A stretch of DNA of 37,873 bases, from positions 1 through 37,873 of the IMG/VR virus record IMGVR_UViG_3300034954_000848, one strand, 5' to 3'. The position numbers and the translations under genes were made by a program. The notes under the pieces were generated by a model. The model saw only the letters and a list, made by a program, of their open reading frames with translations, did no database searches and was not told the DNA's origin. The stretch comes from a virus. Position 1 is the stretch's first letter; each line of letters starts with the position of its first letter. Of this stretch, positions 979 to 35,977 are shown piece by piece.

Positions 979-1002
979 GAGGGGTTCATTCCCCTCTTTT
1001 TT
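979..1002 (+). terminator. Intrinsic terminator after psbD unit
   Basis: Six-base perfect stem GAGGGG / CCCCTC (979-984 with 991-996), loop TTCATT, then six T residues (997-1002). This is a classic rho-independent terminator closing the psbD transcription unit. Confidence 0.9.
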
Positions 1003-1003
1003 A

Positions 1004-1012
1004 TGCTATAAT
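1004..1012 (+). promoter_or_regulatory. Extended -10 promoter (TGCTATAAT)
   Basis: TGCTATAAT is a perfect TATAAT with the TGN extension. It starts two bases after the psbD terminator and about 20 bases before the ATG at 1033. No good -35 box is seen; the extended -10 would compensate. This suggests recognition by host-type sigma factor, so early or middle expression. The same nine bases occur again at 18271-18279. Confidence 0.75.
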
Positions 1013-1670: not shown

Positions 1671-1901
1671 ATGAAAAAGCAAGAAATGATTGATACCCTC
1701 ACTAAGCAGGGTCAAGATATTAGAAAAGAATTGGTTGAGATGCAGCAAACTTTTACAGTTAAGAAAGAAATGCTGACTAGAATTGAAGGTGCTCTTGAAG
1801 CACTCTCTGCTCTAGAACCAGATGAACCATCTGCACCATTGGAATCAGAAGAACTTGCTGACCATACAGCAGCTGCTGCAGCACTTGGTATTTTAAAATA
1901 A
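1671..1901 (+). CDS. Small coiled-coil protein, possible fibre chaperone (gp57A-like)
   Basis: 76 residues. Residues 3-50 are a strongly predicted amphipathic helix or coiled coil (KKQEMIDTLTKQGQDIRKEL to ALEALSAL); the rest is acidic, Pro/Ala-rich and probably disordered. It resembles the 80-aa protein at 18318-18560: both share a pattern of L..Q.Q....KEL, a lysine, a methionine, then an aliphatic residue before (E/Q)G and E.L..L. T4 gp57A, the trimerisation chaperone for tail fibres, is also about 79 residues with an N-terminal helix and acidic tail, so a similar role is plausible here, directly upstream of the fibre array. That is inference from architecture and position; sequence similarity to gp57A is not shown. 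No clear ribosome binding site is visible. Confidence 0.75.
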   Translation: MKKQEMIDTLTKQGQDIRKELVEMQQTFTVKKEMLTRIEGALEALSALEPDEPSAPLESEELADHTAAAAALGILK

Positions 1902-1916
1902 TCAATTCAAAACACG

Positions 1917-1924
1917 AATAAATA
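1917..1924 (+). promoter_or_regulatory. T4-type late promoter (AATAAATA)
   Basis: AATAAATA matches the late -10 element of T4-like cyanophages (gp55-type sigma). It lies about 50 bases before the ATG at 1975. Transcription would start about six bases downstream, inside the hairpin at 1928-1947. Confidence 0.7.
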
Positions 1925-1927
1925 AAA

Positions 1928-1953
1928 GGAGACTTACATAAGTCTCCTTTTTT
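1928..1953 (+). terminator. Intrinsic terminator between small-gene operon and fibre operon
   Basis: Nine-base perfect stem GGAGACTTA / TAAGTCTCC (1928-1936 with 1939-1947) with a two-base loop, preceded by AAAA and followed by six T residues (1948-1953). It should end the transcript of 1033-1901. It sits directly over the start region of the late promoter at 1917-1924. Confidence 0.9.
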
Positions 1954-1974
1954 GGTATATACCGAATGTAATAA

Positions 1975-3852
1975 ATGGCAACACCTTTTAGGTTAAAACG
2001 ATCTGCTGTATCTGGAAAAAGACCAGAACTGTCGGACTTACAGCTAGGAGAACTAGCGATAAATTTTCATGACGGTCATCTGTATGCTGAGAGAGACACG
2101 GGAGGTGTCGGCATCGGAACGACCGTTGCACTCTTAACTCCATGGAAAGAAAATTTTGGAGGAGGGTCTATTACCTATGTGGGTGTTGTCACAGCAACAA
2201 CATATCACGGCGATCAAGTGATCGGAACACCAACAGGTGGATCATTTAGAGCAGGAGCATTTACACCAAGCGCAAGTGATTTGACAAAAGATTCTATTGA
2301 TGAACTAAACTTCATTCTAGGAAAGTTAGTTCCAACAGCACCAGATGATATTGATGGAGTTTCTCTTTCACTGACTGGTACTGCAGGTGTTGGTAGACTT
2401 TGCCAAGGATTTACACCAACAAATAATACTGGTGGATCACTAACACCATCAGCAGGAACTCAGTATACTAGAAATACTGATGGTACAATTACCACAAATT
2501 ATATTACCGAGTATGGACCAGGTGATAGTGGAACAGTAACTGGTTTTGTTAATGCAGTTGGAGTTGGAACTACAACTCTCAATATTTCTTTTGGAATATA
2601 TGCAGTCAAATCTGATAATGGAACGTATGGAGCACTGCAAATTGCAAATGATAAGGATGCGGCAGATTCCACAAGAAATGTAGGAATCACTTCATTGTTC
2701 TATGAAGTTTATGATGCAAGATTGATTAATGCTGCATCACCTGACGGTTTTAACAAAGCATTTCTTACACACGGATCATCAACAACAGATAACGTTTTCT
2801 GGTATGAAGATCCAAGCACCGTTGGAGCACCAGTAATTTCATTTAGTGGAGTAACTGCACCCAGTAGTCCCACACTGAACTATTCATCTGGTGTTCCTCA
2901 CTATACTCAAGCAACAGCAAATAACTTCACTTATAGTGTAACAGTTACCAATGCTTCTGGTGATATGTACACTCAGAACAAATTACTGAATTCTGATGGA
3001 CAAACTGCTGGTTTCCAAAATCCAGGGCATAAAGAGTATGATGATTTCACTAGTGGAACTTTACCACCAGCAAGAAACTTTGGTGTAGGATCTGGTGCTG
3101 TTGTCAATATTGCCCAGACTCCAAGAGATTTACATCTTACACTTACATCAAATCATTTCACACGATTTGATGCTGTAACTCCATATGGTTCACACAATAA
3201 TCAGAGACTGAGTTACAATACTAACATTAATATTATGGGCACCACTGCCCGCACCAATGCGATTGATGAGGATAACATTCTTATCTCTTCACTTGGAACT
3301 GGTTCTGGAAATGCTACTAGAGTAAATGCTGGATCTACTGGTGACAACCCAACTCCAGTATATACTTCTTGGAGTGCAAACTCTTCGGTTGCTACTTATG
3401 AAGCAGTTGTAAGAGGTGCAACACTAAGGCATGATCAAACTGATTATTCTTCTGGATATCTTCCTGCTGGACCTGATTATTCTTCAGGTAGAAATGGAAC
3501 ACAATATTTCCAAGTTGAGTTGATTAGATCTAATGTATCTGAATTTAGTATTACTTATAGTGGTGCAGCTGCTGGATGTTTTGTTTGTATGCCTGATAAC
3601 TCAGCATGGACCACATCACTCTCTGGAACTAATGGTTGGGCAGATATGTTCCAAGCATACAGAGGAGCAGGTATTCCAACATCATCAGAACCAGGATGCT
3701 CTTCTGGTGGTTTGATGGATAATAATGGTGGCACATTCACTTGTGTATTTGGAACTGAATCATCATCTAATGATAGTAATAATCGTATCTTGATTAGATG
3801 GAAATTGACTTCTGGACAGTCAATTACAGGTATGTCATTCTCCGCTACATAA
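1975..3852 (+). CDS. Tail fibre-like virion protein (625 aa)
   Basis: Large beta-rich, glycine/serine/threonine-rich protein. Residues 1-60 resemble a common phage fibre head: basic start (MATPFRLKRSAVSGKRP), then DLQLGELAINFHDGHLYAERD, a motif of the type QLGELAIN..DG.LY seen at the N termini of many marine phage fibres and structural proteins. The remainder (about 100-625) shows no named domain; it is low in charge with few cysteines, fitting a trimeric beta fibre or adhesin. It is the first gene of the late four-gene unit to 12332, and the ATG is the only start near the promoter; an upstream in-frame ATG (1966) is followed at once by TAA. The virion role is inferred from family and context; the receptor is unknown. 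Confidence 0.8.
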   Translation: MATPFRLKRSAVSGKRPELSDLQLGELAINFHDGHLYAERDTGGVGIGTTVALLTPWKENFGGGSITYVGVVTATTYHGDQVIGTPTGGSFRAGAFTPSASDLTKDSIDELNFILGKLVPTAPDDIDGVSLSLTGTAGVGRLCQGFTPTNNTGGSLTPSAGTQYTRNTDGTITTNYITEYGPGDSGTVTGFVNAVGVGTTTLNISFGIYAVKSDNGTYGALQIANDKDAADSTRNVGITSLFYEVYDARLINAASPDGFNKAFLTHGSSTTDNVFWYEDPSTVGAPVISFSGVTAPSSPTLNYSSGVPHYTQATANNFTYSVTVTNASGDMYTQNKLLNSDGQTAGFQNPGHKEYDDFTSGTLPPARNFGVGSGAVVNIAQTPRDLHLTLTSNHFTRFDAVTPYGSHNNQRLSYNTNINIMGTTARTNAIDEDNILISSLGTGSGNATRVNAGSTGDNPTPVYTSWSANSSVATYEAVVRGATLRHDQTDYSSGYLPAGPDYSSGRNGTQYFQVELIRSNVSEFSITYSGAAAGCFVCMPDNSAWTTSLSGTNGWADMFQAYRGAGIPTSSEPGCSSGGLMDNNGGTFTCVFGTESSSNDSNNRILIRWKLTSGQSITGMSFSAT

Positions 3853-12200: not shown

Positions 12201-12332
12201 ATGGTTGTTGGTGAAAGAAAAGATCAAGATATAATTAATAACAGAGCAACAGATTCTGAAGGTAGATTTATTCCAGAAATTACTGATGAATATGATCCAT
12301 CACAGTTTCCAACATATCCAGAAGAATCATAA
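9204..12332 (+). CDS. Tail fibre protein with C-terminal HP..EGPE domain (1042 aa)
   Basis: AAGGA precedes the ATG. The N-terminal part (1-150) has fibre modules shared across the window: GNVSIGGTLTYEDVTNIDSV (about 64-83), IVHTGDTNTAIRFPAADTF and GNVGIGTDNP repeats. The middle carries several ..GNVGI.. and ERLRITSDG units alternating with less conserved beta segments. From about residue 900, after a glycine-rich linker (AAGGGGGNVNASGS), is a domain with KNFMIDHPL, LAHAAVEGPE, MYRGKVDL and a WMVVGERKD strand, found at the C termini of phage and bacterial fibre-like exported proteins. The tail is acidic with prolines (DEYDPSQFPTYPEES). Last gene of the late unit begun at 1975; its stop codon lies inside the next late promoter. 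The exact role of the end domain is not known to me. Confidence 0.82.
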   Translation: MALTKVSGDILDPGINVAGIVTATGFDGPFTGGSGKNITAGIVTSTGLDVNGNGDISGDLSVSGNVSIGGTLTYEDVTNIDSVGIITAQSDISIADKIVHTGDTNTAIRFPAADTFTVETAGSERVRVDSSGNVGIGTDNPATNFRLDVNGDLSLGELGGSDNTYIDQKQNGSLEIINSGRTSNNGSVRINRHNNISGDTTYFRDFEVYDGKDNLLLLADGSSGNIGIGTDNPAYNLEVFGDSALISGSSAANLILEDRGVADSSNPFFLLSSDGGDFKITTADRNGSGTTTNSTQRLSINSDGNIIVGDFTTIDTRNTGGIHIQHSKGVSFRSNTSQSVSRNWRIRNDDYGWGNLDFSVGDSVNDWGDSASDVLLSLTSNRRVGINATVPQQRLDVVGLAHTVAVFRPDNNSVSAYGDASAVNNLVNLRMPYGSNPGSQTNNGARWGIKFQGRNDGAEYGTDAGKSASIYAVSEETNSGYNRKVGLSFYTSPLDADQEERLRITSDGKVKFGTNNSTTDYLEWGSNPRLFLQTPTGINGLRIYSDTTPFEIGGSASTRKVSMGGNPNYDLSISGSYSLSSGGHDSSPKVFLNATRHNGSTTVTSFQTSIQAVSASNTANDGYLGLGASATPDDLVIRPSGNVGINQSDPSRAKLHVVGPSTDTEEIIAKFKGGSGGDCESRIALVAGYPDNVNDTEGHVYLAARRNGNGNSSSFSVYCSNGGTMTERFKVTNGGDLYLNGSNGSHRVVDEYAGTVSVTGTNNESFAFEFIGSALASGGLLYVWGTSGNVVVNVSAEILINHSQDVTIKSMSGAYTQARIRVKTDGNTRCAVYLGRHAGYGSGTTTLNWRFIAYGGTYAYTTESTNTGTDHTHTTSSGSFRITAAGGGGGNVNASGSKNFMIDHPLVGLSTTTKLAHAAVEGPECNTMYRGKVDLVDGTATVNIDTNSRMTEGTFVALNQNVQCFTTNETGWTAIKGSVSGNLLTITAQDNTCTDTISWMVVGERKDQDIINNRATDSEGRFIPEITDEYDPSQFPTYPEES

Positions 12333-14352: not shown

Positions 14353-17028
14353 ATGGCATCGGAAATTCGTGTAAATAGTCTAACTAATAGAAGCGGTTTA
14401 AGCACAGTTAGTATTACCGATACTGGTGCCGTATTTGCTGGATTGGTAACAGCAACAACTTTTAGTGGACCTTTAACTGGTAATATAACTGGTAATGTTA
14501 CAGGAAACGTAACAGGAAATCTCACCGGTAACGTAACTGGTACAGCAACTACTGCTACTGCATTAAGTGGTTCCCCAAGTATTGCAGTTGCTGATATTAC
14601 TGCGACTGGTAATGTAAGTATTGGCGGAACGCTAACTTATGAAGACGTAACTAATATTGATTCCGTTGGTATTATTACTGCACAGAGTGATGTTCTAGTC
14701 GGTAGAAATCTTAGTGTTACTTCTGGTATATCAACGGTCAAATCACTTGATTATGCTGCGATTGATTCAACAATCTCCGATACTGCTGTTGATGTTTTTA
14801 TATACGATACCTCTAAGGACTCTGATGGTGGTGCCTGGAGATACAGAACTCAACACACTTCTTGGTATAATGAAACACTAGGGACAGCAACTAGAGGTAG
14901 TAGAAAAGAGTTTCCTGCTGTTGCCGTTATTGTTGCTGAGGCAAGTTTGGTAACCATTTATGATGGTGATGATCCAGATCTGCCATTATGGATTAGTTTC
15001 CCCACAACAAATGCTACGGGAGTTACTGCTCTCAATGGAGAACTTTGTTTATCTGCAAATGCTAGTGGTGGTCCAGCATATCATTCTTTATTGCGTATTA
15101 ATTTTATCGCAGACAATGCAATCAACCACAGAAATAATGGTAGTGCGACTGTTCAAGGTTACTTTGTTCGTACATTATCTTCGACAGACCTTGCTTTTTT
15201 AGATAATGGTGCTGTTTATTGGACTGGATTCACTAGTGAAGTTCCTAACATAGTAAATAGCACAGCTAATGACGTAGCAATGACCGTGCTACCAAATGCA
15301 CCCATTGATGAGACCACTGGACTTCCTGTTCCTACTATTGCTGTTGCGACTAATGGTGGTGTAAGTGTTATTAGAGATCATGGACCTGTTTATGATATCA
15401 CAACAACTGTAGGTAGTAATAATGAAGCAAATCATATAACATTTAATGAAGAAAAAACTAAATTATCTTGGTTAACTAGAAATGGAGCAATTTATGCTCT
15501 TGTAACGGATATACCAGATGCAGATATAACTGCTAGACAATCTGATGACGTAGTAATTTCTCTCCATACTTCATATGTTTCTGGCACTGGACATGATATT
15601 AAAATTATAAATGGTTCAAACTATAATGATTTAATTCATAGTAGAGATAATATTCTAGCATTTGCTGCTGGAGGAAGTAATTCGGGATTGCAATTAGTAG
15701 ATTATGATTATGAAAATCTTTCGGGAGATAATCAAGGAAAAGTCTGTCAAGTAACAACTTCATTCAATACAGGGTGGCAATACGGAGACATCAAAAGTGC
15801 TTTCTTATCTGATACTGTTACTACACAACCATCAGAGTTAATTACTAATGGAACTTTTGATAGTAATATTGATGGTTGGTCATCATTTAATTCAGTTTTA
15901 AGTCACCAAACAGATGCAATTAGAGTTGCTGATGATGGTTCTTGGAGTAAAGCATATCAATCATTCACCACTGTAGTTGGAAGACAATACCAAGTTAAGA
16001 TTACTATCAAAACAATTAGTGCTAATGCTGCTTTTGCATATGCTGGAGCTCAAAACCCTGCTCAACTCGGTGGAAATGATACTACTATTTTTAGTAGTAT
16101 TACTAGCACAGGTACTTATTACGGAGTATTTACTGCTACAGCAACAACATCCTACATTGAGGTAACTTCCGATAGTACGAGTTATGTTGAATATAGTGAG
16201 ATATCAGTTAAAGAAGCAGAACAAGACCGTAGTGTAGGCCGAACAGGAATCCAAGCATTCGGAACAGTCACCAAGAGTGCCGTTGCAACTGGTGCTGATC
16301 TAGTTTCTTATGGTCCTTTTAGCACTTCAAATCGTTTAAGACAACCTTACAATTCTGATCTTAACTTTGGAACTAACGATTTTAGTATTATATTATGGAT
16401 GTATAACACTGGATCAACAGTTCATCAAACTCTTGTTGGTAGAGATAGTAGAGAATTTTCTGTAGATATACTTGATGATGCAAATCATAATAGAAAATTT
16501 AGAATTTATTCTTTCGATAATGGTAATTCGTTACAAAGTTTTGATAGTAATGATGATCCATTCCCATTAAATACTTGGTCTCATGTATGTGTGAACTATA
16601 CTGGTGGTAATACCGTTGCGGTTTATGTAAATGGTGTTCTTAATAAATCTGGAACTCTGAATTATGACATTAATGATACTTCTTATGGATTAAATATTGG
16701 ATGTAGAAATACAGGTGGAACTTATGCTCATGCTGCAGATGCAACCAAATTAGCATTGGTAAGGATTTCTGGTTCAGCACCATCAGAAGAACAAATCAAA
16801 AAAATGTATCAGGACGAGAAGATGCTCTTCCAAGAGAATGCTAAGGCAACCTTACATGGTACTTCTAATGGTGTGACTGCATTAGCATTTGATGATGATA
16901 CTGATCTTCTGCACGCTGGAACTGGAGATGGTAGATCAGATTTTCAGGGACTACGTAGAATAAATAATACTACTACGGCAGTGACAACTGCTATAACGGC
17001 ACAAAACGAGTTTATAATAGAACAGTAA
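14353..17028 (+). CDS. Propeller/LamG tail fibre 1 (891 aa)
   Basis: Head MASEIRVNSLTNRSG, then six TGNx-type repeats (residues 42-65) and GNVSIGGTLTYEDVTNIDSV. From about 135 starts a block shared with the proteins at 21519 and 32960: DVFIYDTSKDSDGGAWR, HTSWYNETLGTATRG, EFPAVAVIVAE and YDGDDPDLPLW; then blade-like strands (PTIAVATNGGVSVI). About 495-620 is a carbohydrate-binding-like module (ELITNGTFDSNIDGWSSF). About 650-800 is a LamG/concanavalin-like domain (QPYNSDLNFGTNDFSIILWM; NTWSHVCVNYTGG; VYVNGVL). The last 90 residues (ENAKATLHG; VTALAFDDDTDLLHAGTG; RSDFQGLRRINNTTTAVTTA) look like a closing propeller blade. Likely a sugar-binding tail adhesin. The partner gene starts two bases after the stop. 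Ligand unknown. Confidence 0.85.
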   Translation: MASEIRVNSLTNRSGLSTVSITDTGAVFAGLVTATTFSGPLTGNITGNVTGNVTGNLTGNVTGTATTATALSGSPSIAVADITATGNVSIGGTLTYEDVTNIDSVGIITAQSDVLVGRNLSVTSGISTVKSLDYAAIDSTISDTAVDVFIYDTSKDSDGGAWRYRTQHTSWYNETLGTATRGSRKEFPAVAVIVAEASLVTIYDGDDPDLPLWISFPTTNATGVTALNGELCLSANASGGPAYHSLLRINFIADNAINHRNNGSATVQGYFVRTLSSTDLAFLDNGAVYWTGFTSEVPNIVNSTANDVAMTVLPNAPIDETTGLPVPTIAVATNGGVSVIRDHGPVYDITTTVGSNNEANHITFNEEKTKLSWLTRNGAIYALVTDIPDADITARQSDDVVISLHTSYVSGTGHDIKIINGSNYNDLIHSRDNILAFAAGGSNSGLQLVDYDYENLSGDNQGKVCQVTTSFNTGWQYGDIKSAFLSDTVTTQPSELITNGTFDSNIDGWSSFNSVLSHQTDAIRVADDGSWSKAYQSFTTVVGRQYQVKITIKTISANAAFAYAGAQNPAQLGGNDTTIFSSITSTGTYYGVFTATATTSYIEVTSDSTSYVEYSEISVKEAEQDRSVGRTGIQAFGTVTKSAVATGADLVSYGPFSTSNRLRQPYNSDLNFGTNDFSIILWMYNTGSTVHQTLVGRDSREFSVDILDDANHNRKFRIYSFDNGNSLQSFDSNDDPFPLNTWSHVCVNYTGGNTVAVYVNGVLNKSGTLNYDINDTSYGLNIGCRNTGGTYAHAADATKLALVRISGSAPSEEQIKKMYQDEKMLFQENAKATLHGTSNGVTALAFDDDTDLLHAGTGDGRSDFQGLRRINNTTTAVTTAITAQNEFIIEQ
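14476..14547 (+). repeat. Tandem 12-bp repeat, six TGNx units
   Basis: Six in-frame 12-base units near ACTGGTAATGTN, coding TGNI, TGNV, TGNV, TGNL, TGNV, TGTA at residues 42-65 of the fibre. A shorter, diverged run lies at 33632-33667 in the third propeller fibre (TGNV, TGDL, TGNL). Copy number could vary by slippage and so lengthen or shorten the shaft. Confidence 0.85.
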
Positions 17029-17029
17029 T

Positions 17030-18262
17030 ATGACACTTAGAGCAAGCAAACCTGCCTTTAATATTAGAGAAAAACTAACAGAACTTGGTCGTCGTTTTGG
17101 TCTCAAGGGTTCTGAAATTGCAGCGGCAGAGACACTTCAACAAGTAAGAGACCTTCTGAGTATTGGTCGTAAAAATATTGTGATCAATGGAGATATGCGA
17201 ATTACTCAGAGGGGAACTACTACAGTATCAGTTGGTGCTGGTGCTGCTGGTGGATATCAAATTCATGATAGATGGAGAATTAATAATGCTCAACTTGATA
17301 CTTTAACCGCAGATTATTCACATCAAGGTGGGAGTTCAAGTATTGGATTTAGAGATAGTGCAAGATTTACTTGTACAGCAGCAGAAACACTGGCAACAGG
17401 TGAAAGATTTTCTTTCGAAACTCGTCTTGAAGCAAAGGATACGGTCTTTTTAAAATGGGGATCATATGAGGCAAGACCAATAACAGTATCTTTCTGGGTA
17501 AAATCTAATCTACCTGGTAAGTATGGTGTTCATGTTCGTCATCATGATCCAGGAAATGCTTATGTATTTCCATATACTATAAACCAATCTGATGTTTGGG
17601 AATACAAAACATATACTGTTCCAGGAGATCCTTATGGAACCACAAATGATGACACTGGAATAGGATTTTGGCTTAGATTTGTACTTCAATCTGGTGATGT
17701 AGCAGCTGCTGCTGATGAAAAATGGAGCACTACTGATAGTGGTCCTAATACTACACCAGATGCTGTTGCCTGGGGATCCGTAGTAGGACATACTTGGGAA
17801 ATTACGGGAGTTCAGGTTGAAGCAGGAACCAACGCCACCGAGTTCGAACGTCGTTCTTATAGTCAAGAACTCGCATTATGTCAGAGGTATTTTCAAGGAT
17901 GGAATGCAAAGTCCTCTACTGAACGTGCAGCAACGGGAATTTTTGTTTATGATGATGAAGGAAATAGTAGTGCAAACCAAACGACAATAATTGGATCTGG
18001 TTCTGTTGTAGATGCTGACGACGCTAGAATATTTTTCAGTTTACCTGTTACTATGAGAAACAAACCCACACCAGATGGCGGTGACCTAAGATTGATAACG
18101 GGTAATGTTCTACACAATTCATCAACTACTATACAATATAATAATTCTACAATACATACATGTAGTATGATGCTTGATAATGGTGGTGGAATGACAGCAG
18201 GGCAGTGTGTTCACTTGATCATCAAAGGTAATGGATATTTTTACTTAAATGCAGAATTATAA
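17030..18262 (+). CDS. Fibre partner / receptor-binding protein 1 (410 aa)
   Basis: ATG follows the previous stop directly (TAATATG), so it is coupled. N-terminus MTLRASKPAFNIREKL is shared with the genes at 23887 and 35977. Next, GRRFGLKGSEIAAAETLQ is a helical linker also shared with 35977. From about 47 is RKNIVINGDMRITQRGTT, a start motif of a common phage fibre domain, followed by SFWVKSNLPGKYG, SDVWEYKTYTVPGDPYGT, WEITGVQVEAGTNATEFE and QELALCQRYFQ, all typical of that beta-sandwich, carbohydrate-binding-like domain (about 47-290). The last 110 residues are a variable end (ending GNGYFYLNAEL). It probably forms the distal, host-binding part joined to the preceding propeller fibre. The pairing is inferred from its recurrence three times in this window. 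Confidence 0.85.
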   Translation: MTLRASKPAFNIREKLTELGRRFGLKGSEIAAAETLQQVRDLLSIGRKNIVINGDMRITQRGTTTVSVGAGAAGGYQIHDRWRINNAQLDTLTADYSHQGGSSSIGFRDSARFTCTAAETLATGERFSFETRLEAKDTVFLKWGSYEARPITVSFWVKSNLPGKYGVHVRHHDPGNAYVFPYTINQSDVWEYKTYTVPGDPYGTTNDDTGIGFWLRFVLQSGDVAAAADEKWSTTDSGPNTTPDAVAWGSVVGHTWEITGVQVEAGTNATEFERRSYSQELALCQRYFQGWNAKSSTERAATGIFVYDDEGNSSANQTTIIGSGSVVDADDARIFFSLPVTMRNKPTPDGGDLRLITGNVLHNSSTTIQYNNSTIHTCSMMLDNGGGMTAGQCVHLIIKGNGYFYLNAEL

Positions 18263-21518: not shown

Positions 21519-23885
21519 ATGCCTAATCTTGTCGGAATTGGTTTAAGTCAGGTGCCTACCAACAGTATGTTGGGTGGATTGGCATATCAAGATCCTGAGC
21601 ACGCTTCTATTAAGGACTTAGATCTTAAGAATCTCTCACAGATTAATTCGGAGATTGCTGATACTGCTGTCGATGTCTTCGTTTATGATACATCCAAGGA
21701 TTCAGATGGTGGTGCATGGAGAAAGAGAACCACCCATACAAGTTGGTATAATGAGACTTTAGGAACAGCAACCAGAGGAACTAGACGAGAGTTTCCTGCT
21801 GTTGCTGTTATTATTGCTGAGGTAAGTAAGGTAACCATTTATGATGGAGACGATCCAGATCTCCCAATGTGGATGGTATTTGATAGAACAACTAGTAGCA
21901 CTAATGCTGCGAATACAAATTTTTTGGCAGTTGCTAATATAAACATAGCAAATATTTTTATGTTGAACGGTATTTTATGTGTTGCATTTGCAAACGGTGG
22001 ATGGGGAGTTTCTGAAATAGGATTTGTATCTGATTCCCAAAAGTGGTGGTGGACTGCTGGTATCTATAAGCAACCAGCAAATACAATTGCTGAAAGAAAT
22101 GTTGAGGTTGCTTATTATGATGTTGATACATCAGCATCTGTACAACTTAGTAATGCCAATATACAAGATTTAGCAATGGCCGTGCAACCAAATGCAAAGG
22201 TTGATAGTGCTACTGGACTTCCTATTCCTACGATTGCTCTTGGAACTGGTGCTAACGTAAATATCATTAAATCTGATGGAACTGTTGTTGATTTAACTGG
22301 ATTCAGTCCTACTGATACAATTAATATTGATGGAAGTCATGTAGTTGGTTCTACATCATCTTCTGGAGGTAATGATTTTATATTCAGAACTCGCATTCCA
22401 TCAAGTAATGAAATATTTAATACTGGTATAATCGTAGGCACTAAAAATTACTATATGAATAGTAGTTCAGGAACTACTCCTCTTTTACGTGATATTAATC
22501 ATACCCATGTTGAATATGACTCAAAAAATAAAACTACCTATCGTGGAGGGAATGCAGGATTTGATATTATTGTAGCAGGTGAAACAATAAGTAATAATAG
22601 TTCTAAGGTTGCCGTTGCTTACGCTACTACTTCGTTTAATACTGGATATATGGTAGGAGATATCAAAGGTGCTTTCCTGTCTGATACTGATGATACGAAT
22701 CTCGTTGAGGGTGATATATTAGGTGGTAAAGGAACCTTTGATGATGCTTCTTACTGGACTGCTGGTGCTACTTGGTCTGTTAGTGGTGGAGTAGCAACTT
22801 CATCTACAGGTGGTAATAATTACTTATCAAAAAACGGAATACTTACTACTGGAGCGAGATATGTTATAAAACTTACAGTCAGTAGTTATAGTGCCGGAAC
22901 ATTATATGTTTATTGTGGAACAGGTGCTCCTGGTACTGCAAATCACTATCGGGATATTTCGGCTAATGGAACTTATACTTTTATTCTTGACGCATATAAC
23001 ACTAATTTTGGATTATATGGAGCTGGTTTTGGTGGAGTAGTGGATAATCTAACAATTTCTTCGGTGGTTGATAATGATCGTTCAGTAAATAGTAAAGATC
23101 TTGGAGTTATCGGAACAATCACTAAGAGTGCCGTTGCGACTGGTGCCGATTTAGTTGCTTATAGCTTTGGATCTAATAGTAATTATCTAGAACAACCATA
23201 TAATTCTGATTTAGATTATGGAACGGGTGATATGTACTACTCTATGTGGATATATGCGAGTTCTTCAGATAGTTTTAGTGGTTACACTTATATATTTGAA
23301 CGTAGTTCTGTTAGTGATACCAACAATCGTAGACTTGAAGCACGAATGACAACCTCTACAAAATTGGAAGTTTATGCTAATGGACAAACTATAGATAATA
23401 ACGTTCCTGTTCCAGCAGATGCTTGGTTTAAATTTGATGTTCTTAGAAGAAGTGGAGAAGCTTTTGTTTATATTAATGGAGAATATCATTCTTCAACAAC
23501 AGGGGGAGCAGCAACAGGTTCATTGACCGATACTAGTGCCACGTTAGTTATTGGGAACAGAGCATATTTTTCGCCGCGCAATTCGGCATGGCCAGCTAAC
23601 TCAAAGATTGCACTGTTTAGAACAGGAGCATCAGCACCATCAGCAGAACAAATCAAGAAGATCTATGAGGACGAGAGATTATTATTCCAAGAGAACGCTA
23701 AATGCACTCTCTATGGTTCTTCTAATACTGTAACTGCATTAGCATTTGATGAATCTACCGATAGACTTCACGTTGGAACTTCTTCTGGTCGTTCTGATTT
23801 CCAGGGACTACGCAGAATAAATAATACAACCACGGCAGTTACGACTGCTATTTCTGCTCACGATGGATTTATAATCGAACAGTAA
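21519..23885 (+). CDS. Propeller/LamG tail fibre 2 (788 aa)
   Basis: Has a different head from fibres 1 and 3: MPNLVGIGLSQVPTNSMLGG, LAYQDPEHASIKDLDLKNLS, a head I recognise from other marine phage fibres, with no shaft modules. It then joins the common block at about 45: DVFVYDTSKDSDGGAWRKR, HTSWYNETLGTATRG, EFPAVAVIIAE, YDGDDPDLPMWMVF. Blade-like strands follow (PTIALGTGANVNIIKSDGTV). About 395-525 is a carbohydrate-binding-like module (GGKGTFDDASYWTAGATWSV); about 540-700 a LamG-like domain (QPYNSDLDYGTGDMYYSMWI; VYINGEYHSSTTG). The closing block RSDFQGLRRINNTTTAVTTA ends in FIIEQ. Partner gene two bases downstream. Likely adhesin; ligand unknown. Confidence 0.85.
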   Translation: MPNLVGIGLSQVPTNSMLGGLAYQDPEHASIKDLDLKNLSQINSEIADTAVDVFVYDTSKDSDGGAWRKRTTHTSWYNETLGTATRGTRREFPAVAVIIAEVSKVTIYDGDDPDLPMWMVFDRTTSSTNAANTNFLAVANINIANIFMLNGILCVAFANGGWGVSEIGFVSDSQKWWWTAGIYKQPANTIAERNVEVAYYDVDTSASVQLSNANIQDLAMAVQPNAKVDSATGLPIPTIALGTGANVNIIKSDGTVVDLTGFSPTDTINIDGSHVVGSTSSSGGNDFIFRTRIPSSNEIFNTGIIVGTKNYYMNSSSGTTPLLRDINHTHVEYDSKNKTTYRGGNAGFDIIVAGETISNNSSKVAVAYATTSFNTGYMVGDIKGAFLSDTDDTNLVEGDILGGKGTFDDASYWTAGATWSVSGGVATSSTGGNNYLSKNGILTTGARYVIKLTVSSYSAGTLYVYCGTGAPGTANHYRDISANGTYTFILDAYNTNFGLYGAGFGGVVDNLTISSVVDNDRSVNSKDLGVIGTITKSAVATGADLVAYSFGSNSNYLEQPYNSDLDYGTGDMYYSMWIYASSSDSFSGYTYIFERSSVSDTNNRRLEARMTTSTKLEVYANGQTIDNNVPVPADAWFKFDVLRRSGEAFVYINGEYHSSTTGGAATGSLTDTSATLVIGNRAYFSPRNSAWPANSKIALFRTGASAPSAEQIKKIYEDERLLFQENAKCTLYGSSNTVTALAFDESTDRLHVGTSSGRSDFQGLRRINNTTTAVTTAISAHDGFIIEQ

Positions 23886-23886
23886 T

Positions 23887-24435
23887 ATGACAGTAAGAGC
23901 AAACAAACCTGCATTTAATATCAGGGAAAAAATAAAATCACTAGATTATTCTCATGTTCCTTATGAGAAGATGCCCCCAGGCAGTGTTATTCAATATGTA
24001 ACAAAAGCATATCATAACACTAGTGGAACTAGTAATACTAGCATGACTGCCTCTGGTAAAAAAATTACAATATATCCAAAATTTCACGATAGTTACATTA
24101 TAGTTAAATTTTTTGCATGTCAATTTGTTGACGGTACTGCAGGATCAAGACAAACAATCAGAAGAAATGGAAGTGATTTTGTAAAAGTCTTCAATGAAGG
24201 TGGTGGTCCTGAGGGATCTGCATACACCACAATTAATCAACTAGGTTTTTATGGATCTGGAAATACTGGATGGTATGGTATGGGTGCTATGATGGCAATA
24301 GATGTTGATCATAATACTCAGGGTGAAGCACTTGAATATGAAGTATATTTACAGGCGGGATCTGGTGGAAATGTATATTTCCCACCAGGAAGCGTAGATC
24401 ATACATTTGTAGAAGCATATGAGGTAAAACAATGA
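23887..24435 (+). CDS. Fibre partner 2 with a different receptor domain (182 aa)
   Basis: Coupled to the previous gene (TAATATG). The first 16 residues (MTVRANKPAFNIREKI) match the partners at 17030 and 35977. After that it diverges completely: there is no helical linker and no RKN(I/L)VING domain. Instead PPGSVIQYVTKAYHN, KKITIYPKFHDSYIIVKFFA, YEVYLQAGSGGNVYFPPGS and a closing HTFVEAYEVKQ form a compact beta domain of the GSVIQ type found at the ends of many phage fibres. This is a natural exchange of the receptor-binding end behind a constant short adaptor. Its stop overlaps the next start (ATGA). Confidence 0.82.
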   Translation: MTVRANKPAFNIREKIKSLDYSHVPYEKMPPGSVIQYVTKAYHNTSGTSNTSMTASGKKITIYPKFHDSYIIVKFFACQFVDGTAGSRQTIRRNGSDFVKVFNEGGGPEGSAYTTINQLGFYGSGNTGWYGMGAMMAIDVDHNTQGEALEYEVYLQAGSGGNVYFPPGSVDHTFVEAYEVKQ

Positions 24436-35900: not shown

Positions 35901-35977
35901 TACGTAGAATAAATAACACTACGACGGCAGTAACGACTGCTATTTCTGCAAGTGACGATCTTATCGCGGAGCAATAA
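32960..35977 (+). CDS. Propeller/LamG tail fibre 3 (1005 aa)
   Basis: Head MSDIRFNRWLHQSGTGGVSQ, then GHIGIGTTVPTMALDVRGDV and shaft modules: GTLTYEDVANIDAVGIITAQ (about 91-110), KLKFGIGEDLQIYHTGNHS, ILTATTFSGNLTGNVTG. The common block begins near 250 (DIFVYDTRKDSDGGAWRKR; HTSWYNETLGTATRG; YDGDDPDLPMWMVF), with blade strands (PTIAVATNGGVSVIKDDGTV) to about 470. About 600-720: carbohydrate-binding-like (ELITNTDFSSDLSGWSNG). About 755-905: LamG-like (QPYNSDLDFGTGDFSIMFWY; GQWQHYTLIRR). Closing block VTALGYDEDTELLHVGTSSG, RSDFQGLRRINNTTTAVTTA, ending LIAEQ. Several stretches are nearly identical in DNA to fibre 1. Stop and partner start overlap (TAATG). Confidence 0.86.
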   Translation: MSDIRFNRWLHQSGTGGVSQDSSGHIGIGTTVPTMALDVRGDVNIGNTININNASGIISATTFTGTTGTFSGNVSAVDGTFTGDVTIAGTLTYEDVANIDAVGIITAQSDIIVGGGLTVTGISTFNNDVKLLDNDKLKFGIGEDLQIYHTGNHSRIYDSGVGKLQLGSDTQVEILNGSFSVPIAQFNPGGSVVLRHNTTTRLETANTGAVVTGILTATTFSGNLTGNVTGDLTGNLAGISSIAAISSSISATAGDIFVYDTRKDSDGGAWRKRTQHTSWYNETLGTATRGTRKEFPAVAVIVATSSGVTIYDGDDPDLPMWMVFEDTEADMINTHNVNPNSFSLSALNANVLVGSHHPSYGEANVINFISDNGVSYYSAHSGDYRGSISQRNDALSQTINSNYGTLVNSVVKDVAMTVLPNAPIDDATGLPVPTIAVATNGGVSVIKDDGTVVDHVDSAGGQSTQVAFTQDGKLAHSHDGHTGIRIDSLRSSDFTYGSNKVARHNSEEFYINYGLILSGWSGNAPKLNTGSFNSGGQIVPVQDNILAERADTGLNLLARDFPGSPNNNRIAYTTTSYNTGWMQGDIKGAFLSDTDTTNVTGSELITNTDFSSDLSGWSNGNPSQFTRVTTNVGGDTDGKLMYYAVDNNVRTFHQNVTCVAGEKYVLSLRACSDTANAMVIDIDGTNVITIDDNNNAAFITKQHTFTAGSTSVRIRIESAAANRSYFTDFSVRLAVEDRSVNDNGLQVFGTITKSAVATGADLVAYSGFSASNYLQQPYNSDLDFGTGDFSIMFWYKATAGDYTAQCFLHRGDGGAGTWGSGKIIQIEFNGTNIAAFLAESAFSSFDTVAIPGATAATGQWQHYTLIRRASFVGAYLNGELKDSTISNRDLSNTSAKTWIGERPNNSRPLDTTSLALFRMSASAPSDEQIKKIYNDEKHLYKENAKATLYGSSDAVTALGYDEDTELLHVGTSSGRSDFQGLRRINNTTTAVTTAISASDDLIAEQ
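33632..33667 (+). repeat. Short TGNx tandem repeat
   Basis: Three 12-base units (TGNV, TGDL, TGNL), the reduced counterpart of 14476-14547 at a matching place just before the propeller block. Confidence 0.7.

Follow-up and report, generated by a model that had tools for sequence, protein, structure and literature searches.

A tail-fibre-like gene near the start of this window (the whole stretch of virus DNA analysed here, a record of 37,873 nt) is preceded by a leader in which a T4-type late promoter motif is joined to two RNA hairpins with closely similar apical loops. In our view, held with moderate confidence, this is the leader of a late fibre gene and bears a conserved two-hairpin RNA element, together with a lineage-specific terminator at the first hairpin. 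The anatomy of the leader, its conservation, its covariation and its gene specificity are observed directly. The features on which the argument depends are these:

979-996, plus strand: upstream terminator hairpin, followed by T6, from the stricter terminator scan
1004-1012, plus strand: extended -10 promoter-like TGCTATAAT, directly after the 979-996 terminator, read from the sequence
1671-1901, plus strand: small upstream ORF, 76 aa, phrog_580 (unknown function), source of the presumed read-through RNA
1917-1924, plus strand: T4-type late promoter motif AATAAATA (consensus NATAAATA), read from the sequence
1924-1951, plus strand: hairpin 1, 12 bp including its A-U base, loop U[ACAU]A, from sequence, fold and terminator scan
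1930, plus strand: predicted late transcription start (+1), A1930, 6 nt past the last A of the motif, placed from T4 spacing
1948-1953, plus strand: U6 tract (T6) of the terminator, its last three U shared with the extended pairing of hairpin 2, from sequence and folds
1954-1963, plus strand: hairpin 2, GGU[AUAU]ACC, extended to UUUGGU/ACCGAA (1951-1966), from the fold of 1930-1980
1975-3852, plus strand: tail-fibre-like gene, 625 aa, with a conserved N-terminal domain; phrog_17885 (tail fiber) over residues 1-49, phrog_8578 over residues 78-624

The window opens within a psbD-like gene, 80% identical to the psbD of cyanomyoviruses, and its virus is therefore taken to be a T4-like cyanophage. 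Downstream of the 625-aa gene lie further large tail-fibre and baseplate-like genes; upstream are three small ORFs, at 1033-1368 (phrog_475), 1365-1652 (no phrog) and 1671-1901. No homologs of the 76-aa protein encoded by the last of these were found in viral_contigs, and no Pfam families matched for the four proteins searched. Judged from its sequence, TGCTATAAT is a probable early promoter for ORFs 1033-1901, and with the terminator before it and the ORFs behind it forms what looks like an early cassette; it is absent at 1004-1012 from the output of the consensus promoter scan.

The motif AATAAATA is a member of the NATAAATA class, which is given as a late promoter motif of cyanomyoviruses (PMC2984593, in excerpt), and it adjoins the tail-fibre-like gene. 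Because the T4 late motif spans -13 to -6 relative to the start (PMC1524935, in excerpt), +1 would fall at A1930, in the left arm of hairpin 1, which agrees with the original prediction of a late start near 1930. The same prediction had set the motif directly before a strong terminator (stem 1928-1947, T-run to 1953), and the sequence confirms it. An 8-bp, G+C-bounded stem, GGAGACTT (1928-1935) with AAGTCTCC (1940-1947), closes the loop ACAT (1936-1939) and stands directly before T6, which is the sequence form of an intrinsic terminator; A1924-A1927 are able to pair with T1948-T1951. The full hairpin (1924-1955) has an MFE of -14.5 kcal/mol (z -4.7), equalled by 1 of 200 shuffles. The stricter scan finds only two strong plus-strand terminators in the 37.9-kb window, hairpin 1 and 979-996, and a looser consensus scan reported the hairpin 1 site on the minus strand only. 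From the end of hairpin 1 to the ATG is 27 nt, and no Shine-Dalgarno sequence of the fibre gene lies within the hairpin.

Late RNA had further been predicted to be unable to form the full stem. Folding from successive starts gives MFEs of -11.3 (1928), -7.6 (1929), -4.1 (1930) and -3.6 kcal/mol (1931), so that the exact start, within 2-3 nt, decides the size of the effect. The drop from -14.5 to -4.1 kcal/mol at 1930, a loss of about 10 kcal/mol in the fold, favours this prediction, but a 6-bp stem remains; hairpin 1 is weakened, not abolished.

Across the window ATAAATA is not enriched (13 found, 14.5 expected), and all 13 copies lie on the coding (plus) strand, several of them immediately 5' of an ORF start. 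The window's other ATAAATA sites before ORFs carry no such hairpins, and we therefore rejected the notion that these are a general late-promoter feature. Further late-type ATAAATA motifs at ORF ends or starts occur at 12329, 14326, 18278, 21488, 32574, 32936 and 37833, and several overlap the preceding ORF's stop codon (e.g. TCATAAATA before 12353, 14353 and 32960). Separately, three ORF ends are near-identical (GACTACGTAGAATAAATAATACTACTACGGCAGT..., at 16960-17030, 23817-23887 and 35909-35977); they are copies of a fibre C-terminal end, each with ATAAATA in frame some 60-70 nt upstream of the ORF that follows, and perhaps constitute a recombination joint.

Although hairpin 1 had been described at the outset, hairpin 2 (1954-1963) and the conserved loops had been missed. 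In its extended form hairpin 2 borrows the last three U of the terminator and lies about 8 nt from the start codon. Its GGU-ACC bases are invariant in our leader alignment A2 (25 rows), and so is ATAAATA, the presence of which was required of every row. The predicted late leader as a whole (1930-1980) folds only mildly better than shuffles (z -1.1). In A2, the first structure alignment, an arm insertion was out of register, which gave model R1 only 3 base pairs. Built from 25 leaders, R1 served as a sequence-like probe only; all 14 of its hits, in 546 kb from 27 sources, were leaders.

Relatives were sought with the first 60 residues of the 625-aa protein and comprise the best 80 of 105 IMG/VR loci, 73 phage records (13 of them used), 12 assembly contigs and the best 80 of 519 additional viral loci. 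Cyanomyovirus leaders follow one order: ATAAATA, stem-loop, stem-loop, start codon. Cultured phages with this leader include P-SSM2 (ahead of its gene 293, L203) and S-B05. Their stem sequences vary (GGAGACUU, GCAGU, AACCCUU, AGAAGGAUU, ACACUU and others), the apical loop U[ANAU]A is nearly constant across the hairpins, and the second hairpin is mostly GGU[ANAU]ACC, 8-15 nt 5' of the start. Because stem, loop and spacing are kept across unrelated stem sequences, we rejected a chance meeting of an A-rich stretch and a terminator. Freshwater GC-rich phages have one hairpin, GCCU/GGCU[ANAU]AGGC/AGCC, about 25 nt before the start codon; it often sits within an outer helix (e.g. GCGUCC/GGACGC or CUCC/GGAG) that includes the Shine-Dalgarno sequence, with a bulge most often of 6 nt. 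Hairpins with the U[ANAU]A loop also occur where there is no T4 late promoter, in siphovirus S-CBS2 (L211), in freshwater phages and in an Azospirillum contig (L224). Of the 12 loci taken from cellular genome assemblies, only 4 show the U[ANAU]A loop. Prophage-like homologs from Limnohabitans and Microvirga (L218, L219, L220) place a hairpin with another loop (GCUU, GUUU, GAUU) in the equivalent position. In three loci (L364, L387, L425) the same two-hairpin leader, late motif included, stands before fibre genes that encode a related yet distinct N-terminus, MASPILQFKRGNF.NLPGLQAGEPALT.DKFDLYVGID.

For statistics we used the 184 leaders with at least 70 nt upstream (shorter ones were excluded), 88 of which are non-redundant (<80%). 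The strongest proximal hairpin carries the U-ANAU-A loop in 55 of these 88, against 0.16 expected from mononucleotide shuffles, which preserve single-base composition only. Leaders of other ORFs at the same loci have it in 5 of 478 cases: one is a family leader in mirror image, and the other four are 3-bp hairpins over CTAAATA. A TANATA hairpin of at least three stacked pairs is absent from 24 of the 88, among them the late-motif phages S-SCSM1, S-SKS1, ACG-2014f, Sf-CH5 and S-CAM7. Counted outward from TANATA, and with no preselection for pairing, positions one to three are Watson-Crick at 110, 107 and 92 of 145 target sites, and at 48, 62 and 43 of 161 sites in control leaders; all four pair types are present at the flanking positions. 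The covariation score, taken over 64 hairpins (57 distinct) preselected for at least three stacked pairs, is 0.80 versus 0.16 shuffled, with slid controls at or below 0.19, and both-sided changes fill 130 cells versus 47 in shuffles. Further, an outer helix of at least four pairs covering the Shine-Dalgarno sequence occurs in 22 of 66 leaders (4.7 expected).

The element is tied to one kind of gene. All 61 U[ANAU]A hairpin pairs in 2.34 Mb (44 flagged by script, 5 more on the plus strand by eye, 12 minus-strand mirrors) are at leaders of the fibre family; since most loci were chosen for the fibre gene, this result bears on the remaining sequence of those loci. Two protein-blind patterns were also searched, with the family label taken from a lenient regular expression and eight rows set by eye. 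The GC-type pattern GTCCNGCTANATAGCN7GGAC stood before the family in 41 of 41 stretches (39 by regular expression, 2 by eye). Among the matches listed, the cyano-type pattern ATAAATAN{25,50}GGTANATACCGA did so in 67 of 80 (64, plus 3 by eye); of the others listed, 3 preceded a fibre whose N-terminus is related (LQFKRG...LQAGEPAL), 9 lay in other places and 1 at the end of a contig. The DNA pattern ATAAATAAAAGGAG, tried as a probe for the arrangement, met mostly unrelated contigs among the matches listed and was excluded from the counts; the 2.34 Mb does include its loci. Rfam gave no match in the window at gathering score and only sub-threshold, chance-level hits at the leader, and a known RNA family was dismissed. 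No prior description of a two-hairpin leader was found in open-licence full text, as judged by titles and abstract starts. The two-hairpin fibre leader is seemingly a conserved RNA structure not yet catalogued.

We infer the start site, termination and translational role of the leader as follows. A gp55-type late polymerase would start at about A1930, in the 5' leader of the late tail-fibre gene. The late mRNA would then open with a short stem-loop (1930-1945), followed by a second (1951-1966), both with U[ANAU]A loops. This pair would form a cis-acting RNA element of the fibre family, acting most likely on translation initiation and perhaps on stability, and read by a putative ligand or binding protein. 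Within the window's lineage, hairpin 1 would have grown in the upstream direction past the start site and acquired U6, so that RNA arriving from upstream genes would form the complete intrinsic terminator and stop, and late-promoter RNA, devoid of the left base of the stem, would pass through. Thus, the conserved leader probably controls translation or stability of the fibre mRNA, and the insulator is plausibly a lineage-limited elaboration of it, operating as a switch in the lineage of the window. A bolder proposal is possible, if doubtful: the U[ANAU]A stem-loops may constitute a so far undescribed operator in phage RNA, recognised by a protein carried along with the fibre module, possibly the fibre N-terminal domain itself (autogenous control, with output matched to assembly); in cyanomyoviruses this operator would have been joined to a late promoter and, in certain lineages, also to a terminator completed only by read-through RNA.

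An important question is whether hairpin 1 might be a transcription insulator and nothing else, halting early read-through and letting RNA from the late promoter inside it escape. We regard this as unlikely, on the evidence of the late-motif leaders (65 non-redundant, or 66 in the orientation test, where the clustering step differs slightly), 59 of which have the hairpin. Among these 59, 43 place the closing base of the hairpin between +5 and +8, 55 have a purine (A or G) at the predicted +1, and 55 show an ANAT loop; because the hairpin begins at or after +1, the late RNA would retain it whole in many leaders. In 14 of 59 the stem reaches at least two pairs upstream of +1, and a U-run of at least 5 accompanies 8 of these 14 versus 6 of the other 45 (Fisher p = 0.002, uncorrected for phylogenetic relatedness). 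Those eight leaders show several unrelated stems (GGAGACTT, AGAGGGGT, AGAGGCTT, GGAGGGAT, GAAGGATT and TGGAGAGTT). Pairs upstream of +1 are absent from late RNA, yet they are kept with changing sequence, which argues that read-through RNA matters. The large stability gap between full and truncated hairpin 1 also speaks for an insulator, as does the terminator/early-promoter-like pair 900 bp upstream, which brackets the upstream ORFs. Insulation of early from late transcription, as originally predicted, is thus backed by the recurrence and association of crossing stem and U-run in 8 of 59 leaders. As a general function it does not hold: the remaining 51 have the hairpin without crossing stem, U-run or both, and hairpin and loop persist even where the late promoter is missing. 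Hairpin 2 and the loop, moreover, are left unexplained. An informal look at 21 leaders had favoured a link with the orientation of upstream genes, but the systematic test was null: U-runs occur in 12 of 50 leaders with co-directional upstream genes and in 2 of 7 others (p = 1.0), after 1 of 66 leaders was dropped for a short flank and 8 for want of a hairpin.

It is distinctly improbable that the element is simply a 5'-end stem-loop shielding the late fibre mRNA from 5'-end-dependent decay by RNase E/RppH. The stem does start a few nucleotides from the predicted +1 in many cyanophage leaders, T4 gene 32 mRNA is stabilised by its 5' leader (cited in PMC8948821, in excerpt), and host RNase E is altered by cyanophage infection (PMC9692554, in excerpt). 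Plain protection, however, needs no fixed loop, and here the apical loop is conserved and the stem sequence is not; further, the freshwater phages, which have no hairpin 1, carry the same loop in a single hairpin beside the Shine-Dalgarno sequence.

More improbable still is a DNA-level role, with the palindromes acting as cruciforms or recombination joints for fibre-gene swapping: fibre genes are exchanged modules, the palindromes lie exactly at the gene boundary and the counts of G-U versus A-C (12 to 2 at the third pair, 6 to 16 at the fourth) are compatible with it, but stem sequence is free to vary while the loop and the spacing from the start codon stay constant, the Shine-Dalgarno sequence is paired within the outer helix, and hairpin pairs were found only 5' of the gene and nowhere else in the 2.34 Mb.

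Comparison with known systems bears on our preferred reading of a conserved late fibre leader with an added terminator. PeSL (promoter-early stem-loop) cassettes of T4-type phages, reportedly described by Arbiol in 2010 and Comeau in 2014, are said to combine an early, host-like promoter with a terminator stem-loop and to have been proposed as recombination joints. As far as those descriptions go, our site resembles them as a promoter and terminator stem-loop composite of tens of bp between genes; unlike their early, sigma70-like promoter, the one at 1917-1953 is of late type with its start inside the stem, and the site falls outside the PeSL definition. The terminator/extended -10 pair at 979-1012, bracketing ORFs 1033-1901, is a PeSL-like arrangement. 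Mechanistically, the leader of T4 gene e (lysozyme) is the closest published logic among the sources consulted. Its long early RNA forms an inhibitory structure, and late promoters lie within the DNA for the 5' strand of that structure, so that late RNA escapes (PMC3014915, in excerpt). Here, too, the predicted late start removes the 5' strand of a structure found in the longer RNA; in gene e, however, the structure hides the ribosome site, whereas our leader has a terminator as its full structure and another hairpin beside the start codon. The gene 43 operator of T4/RB69, in which the gene's own product binds a hairpin that has -UAAC- as its conserved apical loop and lies some 40 nt 5' of the start codon (same excerpt), is similar in having such a loop upstream of a start codon. 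It differs from our leader in the loop, in having one hairpin rather than two and in belonging to a polymerase, not a fibre, gene; the binding protein in our case is only putative. The conserved structured leaders manA, wcaG and PhotoRC-II (Rfam) of T4-like cyanophages (PMC2864571, in excerpt) concern different genes and structures, and the window has no Rfam match.

If this account is true, a 50-bp leader joins a late promoter, a stop signal for read-through and a structured RNA operator, and its terminator would sort transcripts by where they start. The leader would then be common to myo- and siphophages with different hosts. Because the stems vary and the loop is fixed, its binding partner would be directly searchable. 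Further, it would place a layer of post-transcriptional control over the host-recognition fibres, which are the most exchanged of phage genes.
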